Assembly: GCF_033096465.1 (NCBI RefSeq)
Contig: NZ_AP028156.1
Location: 121,001 to 185,000, forward strand
Length of the DNA stretch: 64,000 nucleotides
Direction: 5' to 3'
From: Blautia luti
Lineage (GTDB): Bacteria > Bacillota > Clostridia > Lachnospirales > Lachnospiraceae
This document shows, piece by piece, positions 59,306-63,887 of the stretch. The notes under the pieces are model-generated. The model ran no database searches. It saw only the letters and a list, made by a program, of their open reading frames with translations, and was not told the DNA's origin. Position 1 is the stretch's first letter. Each line of letters opens with the position of its first letter. The position numbers and the translations under genes are program-made.

Positions 59306-60559
59306 ATGAAAGAAATGATAAAAAGAACAGCCGTTGTGACACTGGCTGGTGTTATGGCAGCAGGAATGCTTACCGGCTGTGGAAGTAAAACATTAGATGG
59401 AACAAAGACAGTAGCAACGATCGATGGAACAGATATTCCGCTGGGTATCGTAAGCCTGTATGCACGCCAGCAGCAGGAGCAGACCACTGCCATGTATTTA
59501 AGTTTCATGGGAAGTGCAGACAATATCTGGGATACTTCTGATGATTCCGGTGAGACATATGGCGAGCAGGCAGTAGACAGCAGCCTGAAAGCAGTAGAAC
59601 TTATGTATCTTCTGAAAGAGAAGGCCGCTGATTATAACGTAGAGATAACAGATGATGAAGAAACTGCCATTGCAGACGCTGCATCACAGTTTATGTCTGA
59701 TAACAGCGAAGAAACCATTAAGGAACTGGGTGTTACCGAAGATCAGGTAAAGACACTTCTGGAACTCCGCACCATCCAGCAGAAGACTCATGATTCCATC
59801 GTAGCAGAAGGAAACATCACAGTATCTGATGACGAAGCAAATCAGTCCTCCTTCACCTATGTCAGCATCTCCACAAGCGGTGATGACATAACTGATGACG
59901 AGAAGGCTGAGAAGAAAGAGCAGGCACAGGAGATCCTGGATAAGATGAAAGAGGATCCGACTGCTGATATGAGTGAAGTAGCGAAAGAAGTAGATGACAG
60001 CTATTCTGCAGTACAGGGTAACTTTACTGTGAAAGAAAGCGATGATGAAGATGAAGACGAAGACAGCTCCGCATATCCGGAAGAGGTTCTGACAGTGCTT
60101 CGCGGACTGACAGAGGGAGAAGTTGCATCTGACATTATTGAGACAGATACAGGATATTATGTAGTAAGACTGGATAAGGTTCTGGATGAAGATGCCACAG
60201 CATCCAAGAGAGAATCTCTGAAAAGCTCCAAAGAGGAAGACTATTATACAGAAACGACAGACGGATGGCTGGACGACGCAGATGTGAAAGAAGTTAAGAA
60301 AGTTCTTAAGACTCTGAAGATCACAGACAGTCACACATTTACAGCGCCGACTGCCACACCGACACCGGAAGTGACAGAGGAACCGGAAGCCACAGAGGCA
60401 CCAGCAGCAACAGAAACACCGGAAGCAACAGAGACACCGGAAGCAACAGAAACACCAGCAGCTACTGAGACACCGGAAGCAACAGAAACACCGGAAGCTG
60501 CTGAGACACCAGCAACAACAGAAACACCGGCACCAACAGCTACACAGGCTGCGAAATAA
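59306..60559 (+). CDS. PrsA/SurA-like foldase lipoprotein
   Basis: 417 residues; ATG 59306 is five bases after GGAGG. Lipobox MLTGCGSK (Cys about 22). Helical SurA_N-like region (LGIVSLYARQQQEQTTAMYL...; VTEDQVKTLLELRTIQQKTHD), then a parvulin-like region (EILDKMKEDPTADMSEVAKEV; LRGLTEGEVASDIIETDTGYYVVRLDKV) interrupted by an acidic DEDEDED loop. Residues about 350-417 are a repeated Thr/Glu/Pro tail (ETPEAT units) that probably reaches into the wall. Likely helps fold exported proteins. It is one of two secreted foldases in the window. Confidence 0.85.
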   Translation: MKEMIKRTAVVTLAGVMAAGMLTGCGSKTLDGTKTVATIDGTDIPLGIVSLYARQQQEQTTAMYLSFMGSADNIWDTSDDSGETYGEQAVDSSLKAVELMYLLKEKAADYNVEITDDEETAIADAASQFMSDNSEETIKELGVTEDQVKTLLELRTIQQKTHDSIVAEGNITVSDDEANQSSFTYVSISTSGDDITDDEKAEKKEQAQEILDKMKEDPTADMSEVAKEVDDSYSAVQGNFTVKESDDEDEDEDSSAYPEEVLTVLRGLTEGEVASDIIETDTGYYVVRLDKVLDEDATASKRESLKSSKEEDYYTETTDGWLDDADVKEVKKVLKTLKITDSHTFTAPTATPTPEVTEEPEATEAPAATETPEATETPEATETPAATETPEATETPEAAETPATTETPAPTATQAAK

Positions 60560-60721: not shown

Positions 60722-61797
60722 TCAGAAAATAACAGTATTACGTCCGTGGGTCTTTCCATAATATAATTTCTCATCAGCCTGTTTTATCAGTGCGGAAAGG
60801 TCAGAGGAATAATCATATTCTTCTACTCCGAAAGTCATAGTGATATGCAGGGCAGTATCTTTATATACGATGGGATGGTAGCTGACAGACATTTTAATAT
60901 CATTGATCAGTGTGCTGGACTGATCCAGGTTAACATACGGGAAGAAGAACAGGAATTCTTCACCGCCCCAGCGGCAGACATGCCCTTTTCCCATGGTTTT
61001 ATCTTTAAATAAAGCGGAAAGCTCCTGCAGTACCAGGTCTGCAGTACCAGGTCACCGCAGTCGTGACCATACGTGTCATTTACTGATTTGAAGAAATCGA
61101 TATCACCGATGGCAATGCAGAAAATTTCATTGGGATTGGCTGCAATGTGATTATCCAGGATTTCTTCCATCCGACGCCTGTTATATAAACCGGTCAGAGG
61201 ATCTGTACCTGCCTGCTGACGCAACTCCATATTGTAAAGGAGCAGATGTTTCTCCGCTTTCTGGAGGTTCGTACTGAAGGTGATACAGATCACACCCATG
61301 ATCACGAAGGATAAAATTGTATTTACAACCTGTAAGATCAGCATTTGCCCGGTGCTTAACGGATAGATCACCGGATAGGTCTGGCAGTGGAAAAACAAAG
61401 CCATACGCAGCAAAAACAGAAATACAGTAAATGTGATCTTCGTAAAAAAGGTATCATATACGGAAAACATGGACATAAGCATCAGCGGCATGATAAAGTT
61501 GGTGCCGCCACAGTTCCATCCGTAGAAGTAGATAAAATATGAAATCCATCCTGCAGAGATGATTACATAAAACAGGAAATTCCATCGTACCCAGAGATGG
61601 TCAATCCCGTATCTGGCCACAAGTGTTCCGATGAGCCAGAAGAAAACAGGAATGCAATTGGCAGGATATCCGAAAGCTGCCATACAGAGGATGAAAATTC
61701 CGAAATATATAATAAAAACATTGTAGGATCGTTTCATTGCCAGGGAAAAATATACAGGTGATATTTCTCCGTCATATTTATGATTAACTAATTTCAT
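60722..61797 (-). pseudogene. Membrane diguanylate cyclase (GGDEF) frameshifted by a 14-bp tandem duplication
   Basis: The minus-strand start is ATG at 61797 after AAGGA. About six membrane helices (MASE-like) span the first 175 codons, then a GGDEF domain begins: TDPLTGLYNRRRMEEIL, GDIDFFKSVNDTYGHDCGDL. At 61025-61052 the 14 bases CTGCAGTACCAGGT occur twice in tandem; this shifts the frame, and the wrong frame ends at 60907. Removing one copy joins DLVLQ to ELSALFKDKTMGKGHVCRWG and on through GGEEF to the normal end at 60722. The catalytic RWGGEEF is intact in the second part. The enzyme would make cyclic di-GMP if restored. Confidence 0.88.
61025..61052. repeat. 14-bp tandem duplication inside the GGDEF gene
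   Basis: CTGCAGTACCAGGT at 61025-61038 and exactly repeated at 61039-61052. The extra copy adds 14 bases (not a multiple of three) and breaks the frame of the diguanylate cyclase. Confidence 0.95.
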
Positions 61798-61841: not shown

Positions 61842-62645
61842 CTAGATCAGATGGAAATGTTTCAGTGCATTGGCAATTCCATCTTCCTCTATATTGGTAG
61901 TCTGGTACGTACAATGAGGAAGAATCTTCGGATCTGACTGCCCCATTGCAATGCTGGTTCCGGCGAACTGAAGCATCGGAAGATCGTTGGTGCTGTCTCC
62001 GAATGCGAAAGTATCTTCTATGGACACTCCCAGATGATCTGCCAGGAACTGGATTCCGGTAGCTTTACTGTATTCTTTCTGGGTCAGTTCCCAGGCTGCG
62101 TCTTCATGTACGAAGCAGATGAAATGCTGGTCTGCAAATGCGCGGAAAGCTTCTGTATCTGCTCCAGGAACCGGAAATGCCAGAAATTTGTCGAAAGTGA
62201 ATGTGTGATAAACCTCCGGGCTGTAGAGAGAAAGATCCTCCACAGCAGTTTCAACTTTTAATTGTGCAATGGCATCAGGAAGAGCTTTGGCTGCACCGTC
62301 ATACAGGATTTTGTCCGGACGTTCGAAAAATGCGGGCATTTGACACTGGCGAAGCCTTTCTACAGTTTCCCTGCACAGTTCGTTGGGATTGGAACTGGAG
62401 AAGAGAAGTTCTCCGTTCATGTAGATCTGGCTTCCACAGCCACATACATATCCATCGAAATCCATCTCTTTGATCATACTGGAAATCATGGCGTAGGTGC
62501 GCCCGGAATTGATAAAAAGGAGATGCCCGTTAGCCCGGGCTTCCTTTAACGCCTGACGTGTACTGTCAGGGACTTTCCATGGATAAGGGGTCAGCAGAGT
62601 TCCGTCAATATCAAAAAATAAAAGTTTACGTGTATTATTCTTCAT
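61842..62645 (-). CDS. Cof-type HAD-IIB sugar-phosphate phosphatase
   Basis: 267 residues from the minus ATG at 62645 (nine bases after GAAGAGG; an ATG at 62654 touches that site). HAD motif I FFDIDGTLL (Asp12, Asp14), motif II FINSGRT, and motif IV FGDSTNDLPML. Likely a phosphatase for sugar phosphates or similar small metabolites. The start overlaps the stop of the DUF4317 gene, so the two are one operon. Confidence 0.9.
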   Translation of the reverse strand: MKNNTRKLLFFDIDGTLLTPYPWKVPDSTRQALKEARANGHLLFINSGRTYAMISSMIKEMDFDGYVCGCGSQIYMNGELLFSSSNPNELCRETVERLRQCQMPAFFERPDKILYDGAAKALPDAIAQLKVETAVEDLSLYSPEVYHTFTFDKFLAFPVPGADTEAFRAFADQHFICFVHEDAAWELTQKEYSKATGIQFLADHLGVSIEDTFAFGDSTNDLPMLQFAGTSIAMGQSDPKILPHCTYQTTNIEEDGIANALKHFHLI

Positions 62646-63795
62646 AAATGTCATCCTCTTCAGAAGTTCTTTCACCTGTATGTACGCGGATGCCATTTAA
62701 TTCTACATTATCCTCCATAGGGATCACCAGACATTTGCGTCCGTCGATGATCCTGGTTTCCACCAGATCTGCGCGTTCAGGATCTACGTGGATCACCACG
62801 TCAGGAGTTTTGATCTCGAAACGGCGGGTATTGGTGATATTAGAAGCAACCAGAGAAGATTTTTCTCCGGCAGTGATCTCGTACTGCTCGTCAAAGGACT
62901 GGAGTTTATCATCCTCCACGCCGCATTCTTCGAAGAGACGCCTGACTTCAGACTTCGTCAGAACTACAGGTTCCGGTTCATCTTTCTGGGATTCGATCAG
63001 TTCGTTTAATTTCTCATGAATATTTAAAACTGTGTCATATTTACAATCATCTCCCAATGTATCCTCTACCAGGGCGTTAAAAGAATCACGCTGTCCGCCT
63101 GCAGACAGAGGAGCAGTACAGCCCAGAAGCTCGTCGATAAAAATGTCCCGAAGCTCGTTGGTATTCTTACTATAATAAAGAACACCGTGAATATCGGTAC
63201 TTCTGTCGTTAAACTGCGGGAAAAGGAATGCCACGTCCGGCATTTCCACGATCCAGTCGCGGATACGGTCCTGGATGCTGTTTGTCTCTGCGTTGTAACA
63301 AAGGCCGGCTTTGGATAATTTCACAGGGCAGATACAGCACATAATGTGGTCATAGATTTCGTCGGATGCATCGAACATCTCAGCACCGTCGGAAGATTTG
63401 CCCGGGATATCATAGACCCCGTGGATCAGAATGATATAGTAATTCTCCGGGTAATCATAAGTCTCAATGATCCTGTCATAAAAACTCTCAATCAGGGCAT
63501 CGTCTGTAAGTTTGCTCTCGCGCAGCTTCATAAGGAAATGCTGTGTACCTCCCTCGGTCTCCTGATCCAGCGGAAATTCCATATTCATCAGATTCTTCCC
63601 GATGGTTCCGGACAGGGATTTGCGGAAAATCTCAAAATATTTAAACATTTCCTCCTCAGAAAGAGAAAGAAATGCTTCTTTTAATTCAGTCTTTTTATTC
63701 TTCTCTCCATCCACGTAACATCCACAGATACGGGTAATAGAGCAGTTTTCCGGGGTAAACTGTTTCTTGATCTCGGAAATTTCTTTTTTATTCAT
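62635..63795 (-). CDS. DUF4317 family protein
   Basis: 386 residues; minus ATG at 63795 is taken as start (a GTG at 63807 is in frame). Contains MNKKEISEIKKQFTPENCS, TRICGCYVDGEKNK and PDVAFLFPQFNDRSTDIHGV, typical of DUF4317, a family of unknown function common in Firmicutes. Soluble, acidic C-terminus (ERTSEEDDIYEE). Its stop overlaps the HAD gene start. Confidence 0.85.
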   Translation of the reverse strand: MNKKEISEIKKQFTPENCSITRICGCYVDGEKNKKTELKEAFLSLSEEEMFKYFEIFRKSLSGTIGKNLMNMEFPLDQETEGGTQHFLMKLRESKLTDDALIESFYDRIIETYDYPENYYIILIHGVYDIPGKSSDGAEMFDASDEIYDHIMCCICPVKLSKAGLCYNAETNSIQDRIRDWIVEMPDVAFLFPQFNDRSTDIHGVLYYSKNTNELRDIFIDELLGCTAPLSAGGQRDSFNALVEDTLGDDCKYDTVLNIHEKLNELIESQKDEPEPVVLTKSEVRRLFEECGVEDDKLQSFDEQYEITAGEKSSLVASNITNTRRFEIKTPDVVIHVDPERADLVETRIIDGRKCLVIPMEDNVELNGIRVHTGERTSEEDDIYEE

Positions 63796-63887
63796 ATAAT
63801 GAAACACCTCGTAGTTAATTTACTTAATATTATAGCTCAGTTTGGAAAAAGGGGCAAGGATGAAGTAGTGCATTTTCTGGATACAGG

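Follow-up and report, generated by a model that had tools for sequence, protein, structure and literature searches.

Results

The window, that is, the whole 64,000-nucleotide stretch of Blautia luti DNA analysed here, comes from a genome that shares its genus with Blautia wexlerae and Blautia sp. MSJ-9. The minus strand of the window encodes, between 61797 and 60722, a membrane protein whose C-terminal part is a GGDEF domain; the gene is split over two reading frames. The upstream frame (60907-61797, minus strand) opens with an ATG at 61797 and runs for 296 codons through the membrane part, a long helix and the first part of the GGDEF domain, up to a stop at 60909-60907. The downstream frame (60722-61048, minus strand) carries the remainder of the domain, with its first ATG at 60994 (90 aa). 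No Pfam family was matched by the first 180 or so residues, for which five to six helices are predicted. Assignment of the gene as a GGDEF diguanylate cyclase is supported by its sequence.

A 14-bp unit, CTGCAGTACCAGGT, occupies 61025-61038 and is followed head to tail by a second copy at 61039-61052. The two copies are identical, with 0 mismatches; the match runs on for one base to 61053, and the homology at the duplication junction is 1 base. Among periods of at least 14, scanned up to 150, this is the sole exact tandem duplication in the window, and in the whole 3.74-Mb genome the 14-mer occurs at 2 places, both within 61025-61052. Forty simulated windows with the dinucleotide transitions of the real one contained 0 exact tandem runs of at least max(period, 14) for periods 9-100, so the duplication is not expected by chance. 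The 28-mer formed by the two copies had 0 matches in the genome_contigs collection, which may omit the window's own genome and very near ones.

The effect on the frame was apparent from the Pfam GGDEF profile (PF00990, 161 positions), of which the upstream frame matched positions 2-61 and the downstream frame 54-160, the overlap of the two matches being the duplicated stretch. No single frame of the window allele contains the complete domain, which in the relative P0001 is matched over positions 2-160 in one frame. The first-pass annotation had placed an exact tandem 14-bp repeat at 61025-61052 inside the GGDEF domain, and both the sequence and the split Pfam match bear this out. Its further proposal, that one copy gives a continuous frame through RWGGEEF and two copies break it, agrees with our alignment, in which the one frame of P0001 accommodates both pieces. 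The upstream frame follows P0001 up to Q253, which lies 20 positions ahead of the first G in GGEEF, and the product of this frame ends in about 43 out-of-frame residues before the stop. The GG[DE]EF motif is present as RWGGEEF in the downstream frame only; its GGEEF part, read from the translation at 60953-60967 (minus strand), is the active-site motif of GGDEF enzymes. That the gene is broken by the duplication is well supported.

P0001, the closest intact relative, is 353 aa long, shares 97% identity in the aligned region and stands for 538 member sequences. Its comparison with the window gene revealed differences at 10 of 343 residues (7/253 and 3/90), a count that leaves out residues 254-263; these ten read as in P0001. 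An alignment of 61 homologs has 36 invariant columns, none of which coincides with a differing site, and at all the differing sites the residue of the window recurs in at least one of the homologs. Residue 283, Y in the window and G in P0001, requires two base changes and lies in a variable column, with Y in 1/61 homologs. We found no lesion besides the duplication in the cyclase gene and no sign of further decay.

An AlphaFold2 model of P0001 (pLDDT 88, pTM 0.59) placed the break site in the helix formed by residues 245-263, ahead of strands 268-271 and 276-282, which flank GGEEF. Loss of this beta hairpin should, according to established knowledge of GGDEF enzymes, abolish cyclase activity. 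The modelled fold and its preceding helix are those of the GGDEF diguanylate cyclase DgcB (6ttr; TM-score 0.88 to 6ttr_A by target length); compared with such enzymes of known structure, the window allele is split. At the position of RxxD, the inhibitory site of GGDEF enzymes, P0001 reads MGKG; the usual feedback inhibition is therefore not expected, even in the intact form.

Directly upstream of the cyclase lies a HAD-type hydrolase gene (61842-62696, minus strand), an order kept in relatives, and upstream of that a DUF4317 gene (62635-63807, minus strand). The Blautia loci L001 and L002 share this arrangement of DUF4317, HAD hydrolase and cyclase genes, which face a PrsA-like gene and Mfd; identity in these two loci is 70 and 64% for the cyclase, 95 and 94% for Mfd and 91 and 93% for DUF4317, the cyclase being conserved less than either of the other two. 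The sequence at the cyclase gene is the same in genomes G063 and G024 as in records L002 and L001. The PrsA-like protein of the window has a Thr/Pro/Glu/Ala-rich tail encoded by about 10 copies of in-frame 18-bp repeats at 60361-60539.

Close orthologs of the cyclase (E 4.1e-72 or better) were detected in 14 of 63 other genomes of the genus searched. None of the 14 has an internal stop, and the open frame is 340 aa or longer in each; for G056 the match was confined to residues 109-353. Sixty loci of relatives were also compared, a partly redundant set with some genomes represented twice, and in 59 of them a single uninterrupted segment covered residues 205-345. The exception, L045, from a metagenome assembly, gave two segments with coordinates in different frames. 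As close orthologs are uninterrupted in 14/14 genomes, the sequences suggest that the duplication, and with it the break, is probably recent. At the duplication site, the DNA of 4 distinct relatives contained no repeat.

Public proteins were searched with residues 248-296 of the upstream product, which gave 4 candidates, none at E 10 or better; the window's own protein was likewise missed in this collection of 90% clusters only, so the outcome carries no information on the frequency of the two-copy form. The search with the downstream fragment gave 24 matches. Among them, two close matches, P0125 (74 aa) and P0127 (65 aa), were rejected as parallels, as they start after GGEEF and do not display the 14-bp break.

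Other short proteins pointed to a different site. In Blautia sp. MSJ-9 and B. wexlerae (L047, L049) the FFKKI codons of the cyclase ortholog, within the GGDEF domain, contain an A7 tract, and 3 of 9 short-protein ends tested switched frame there. The tail of P0021 (21 members) is in frame with the MSJ-9 gene up to A7 and in the next frame after it (16/17 residues), P0025 (32 members, 6 contigs) makes the same switch relative to B. wexlerae (16/17 residues), and the head of P0122 (5 members) enters from another frame at A7 (14/16 before, 27/28 after). P0121 fits a frame switch elsewhere weakly (48% identity upstream), and no switch against the four relatives used was found in P0004, P0020, P0125, P0126 or P0127. 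Frameshifted forms of this GGDEF domain thus occur in at least three further protein clusters. The A7 frame changes could represent genuine OFF variants, or else mistakes made at a homopolymer in sequencing or assembly. A further short protein, P0002 (252 aa), ends in LSLIHI, presumably a translated transposase-adapter sequence, so that its truncation is probably artefactual.

The genome contains 21 GGDEF matches: two are the halves of the split gene, one is under the cut-off and 18 others are over it. There are 5 EAL matches, comprising 4 full domains and one fragment, and 5 c-di-GMP-I riboswitches. PilZ gave 0 matches in the genome; the c-di-GMP-II riboswitch likewise gave 0, in a search whose control was silent as well. 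The GGDEF and EAL domains and the c-di-GMP-I riboswitches found indicate that the c-di-GMP pathway is present and largely intact. Five such riboswitches and no PilZ match suggest that RNA is possibly the main c-di-GMP receptor. The EAL fragment (L157:4004-4489), from a phosphodiesterase, covers profile positions 158-236 only and looks like a decayed gene. Elsewhere in the genome, at L095:11257-11297, an 11-bp unit is repeated 3.7 times between genes for a LacI-type regulator and a GGDEF-histidine kinase, named from their translations; it is possibly a variable-number repeat.

Discussion

We favour, at a probability of roughly 0.7, the interpretation that this strain lost one membrane-bound diguanylate cyclase to a 14-bp tandem duplication, leaving a rarely reverting null allele and not a built-in two-way switch. 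The 14-bp stretch would have duplicated spontaneously and broken the frame before GGEEF. Since it is without the GGEEF loop, the 296-aa product would be unable to make c-di-GMP, and the 90-aa downstream ORF would not be expected to be a working enzyme. Replication slippage could drop one copy at a low rate, by analogy perhaps near 1e-5 per cell, and the 14-bp unit may be somewhat less stable than insertions of up to 9 bp. For the reverse step the stretch would have to duplicate afresh from a single base of homology, which is expected to be far rarer. Because there are two copies only, with a single base of junction homology, and because a repaired site would be left without a repeat to slip on, we read the allele as a rarely reverting null and not as a contingency locus. 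The repeat tract of a contingency locus is kept across relatives, and none was present in the 4 distinct relatives.

Capsule phase variation in pneumococcus was reportedly traced by Waite et al. (2001, 2003) to spontaneous duplications inside capsule genes. As in those genes, a short tandem duplication within the ORF turns the window gene off, and there the loss of one copy restores the gene; the window gene has the same features, an exact short frame-breaking duplication and no other lesion. PMC4022640 describes a tandem repeat as one of the few pneumococcal wchA lesions still able to revert and, citing Waite et al., expects reversion at most at ~1e-5 for insertions up to 9 bp in wchA; PMC4243769 calls such duplications reversible. 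For the pneumococcal capsule, however, reversion and phenotype were reported, whereas our case is one genome sequence and concerns a c-di-GMP enzyme in a gut commensal.

Two further systems share part of this behaviour. The pdcB and pdcC genes of C. difficile phase-vary (PMC9286219) and are likewise a case of a gut Firmicute in which individual c-di-GMP enzymes vary heritably; they are reported to be phosphodiesterases controlled by site-specific inversion upstream of the genes, whereas the window has a coding duplication in a cyclase. E. coli kpsC, subject to homopolymer slippage (PMC13410964), has in common with the window type a reversible frameshift in a coding repeat, but there the lesion is a single-base change in a run of A, and the longest homopolymer run in the window gene is T6. 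The A7 tract of related Blautia is closer to the kpsC type than is the window gene.

Of the alternatives, the strongest is a population-level ON/OFF switch, in which one- and two-copy cells would coexist and interconvert often enough to matter; we consider it unlikely. The first-pass annotation had suggested switching of this kind, and one part of the suggestion stands, since such duplications can be lost precisely. The exact duplication in an otherwise undamaged gene speaks for it, as do the pneumococcal capsule genes, which vary likewise (PMC4022640, PMC4243769), and the three Blautia clusters that change frame at A7 in the same GGDEF domain. Against frequent interconversion stand the limitation to two copies, the 1-base homology and the lack of a repeat at the site in 4 distinct relatives, and the A7 clusters, whose background error is uncontrolled, could be homopolymer errors of sequencing or assembly. 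To call the gene switched is possible but unsupported. A broader version, which we regard as a little less probable still, would have this cyclase, third in the DUF4317-HAD-cyclase row, recurrently switched across Blautia lineages, by the 14-bp duplication here and by gain or loss of one A at A7 in relatives, with gut populations holding ON and OFF cells for one source of c-di-GMP.

An assembly or sequencing artefact, with the organism carrying one copy, appears improbable to us. It would fit the intact one-frame forms of all close relatives, as well as a similar exact tandem duplication that splits a second gene of the same assembly. This second duplication, of 32 bp (G000:C1:2008918-2008981, L087:8918-8981), divides an M56-family peptidase gene whose halves match PF05569 in two frames, one at 3-224 with 43.2 bits and the other at 214-295 with 25.5 bits, which is below the cut-off of 31. 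The genome, however, is a single contig of 3,741,599 bases, 99.98% complete, and exact duplications of 14 and 32 bp are an atypical type of error. The rate is not clearly raised either. Counting exact tandem duplications whose period is 14 or more and not divisible by 3, we found 2 among the 859,000 non-N bases sampled, which make up 23% of the genome; two further genomes of the genus yielded 1 in 393,977 (71-bp unit) and 0 in 400,000. These counts are too small for the genome to be called unusual for such duplications.

Least probable is a mobile-element footprint, in which the 14-bp repeat would be a target-site duplication left after excision: a direct repeat that is exact and has next to no homology at its junction, and the 32-bp case with zero homology beyond its unit, would suit it, but the units differ in size (14 vs 32) and sequence, no element residue lies between the copies, and 14 bp is an unusual length for target-site duplications. 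Both duplicated units contain short inverted repeats with stems of 4-6 bp. Ku-type end joining was rejected as an origin of the duplication, the genome giving 0 Ku matches in a search whose control found B. subtilis.

Returning to the rarely reverting null allele, the effect on total c-di-GMP of losing this one cyclase is possibly small in view of the 18 other GGDEF matches, and it may be felt locally rather than across the whole c-di-GMP pool.

In conclusion, the significance of this allele is modest unless read data reveal both forms. Should the one- and two-copy forms occur together, a simple DNA change would let a common gut commensal vary one source of its second messenger, and the 5 c-di-GMP-I riboswitches and 4 full EAL domains of the genome provide means to respond to c-di-GMP. 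If they do not, the gene would be a clean example of a revertible null allele. It would also serve as a caution that 'pseudogene' calls may conceal revertible duplications, of which 23% of this genome yielded two cases.
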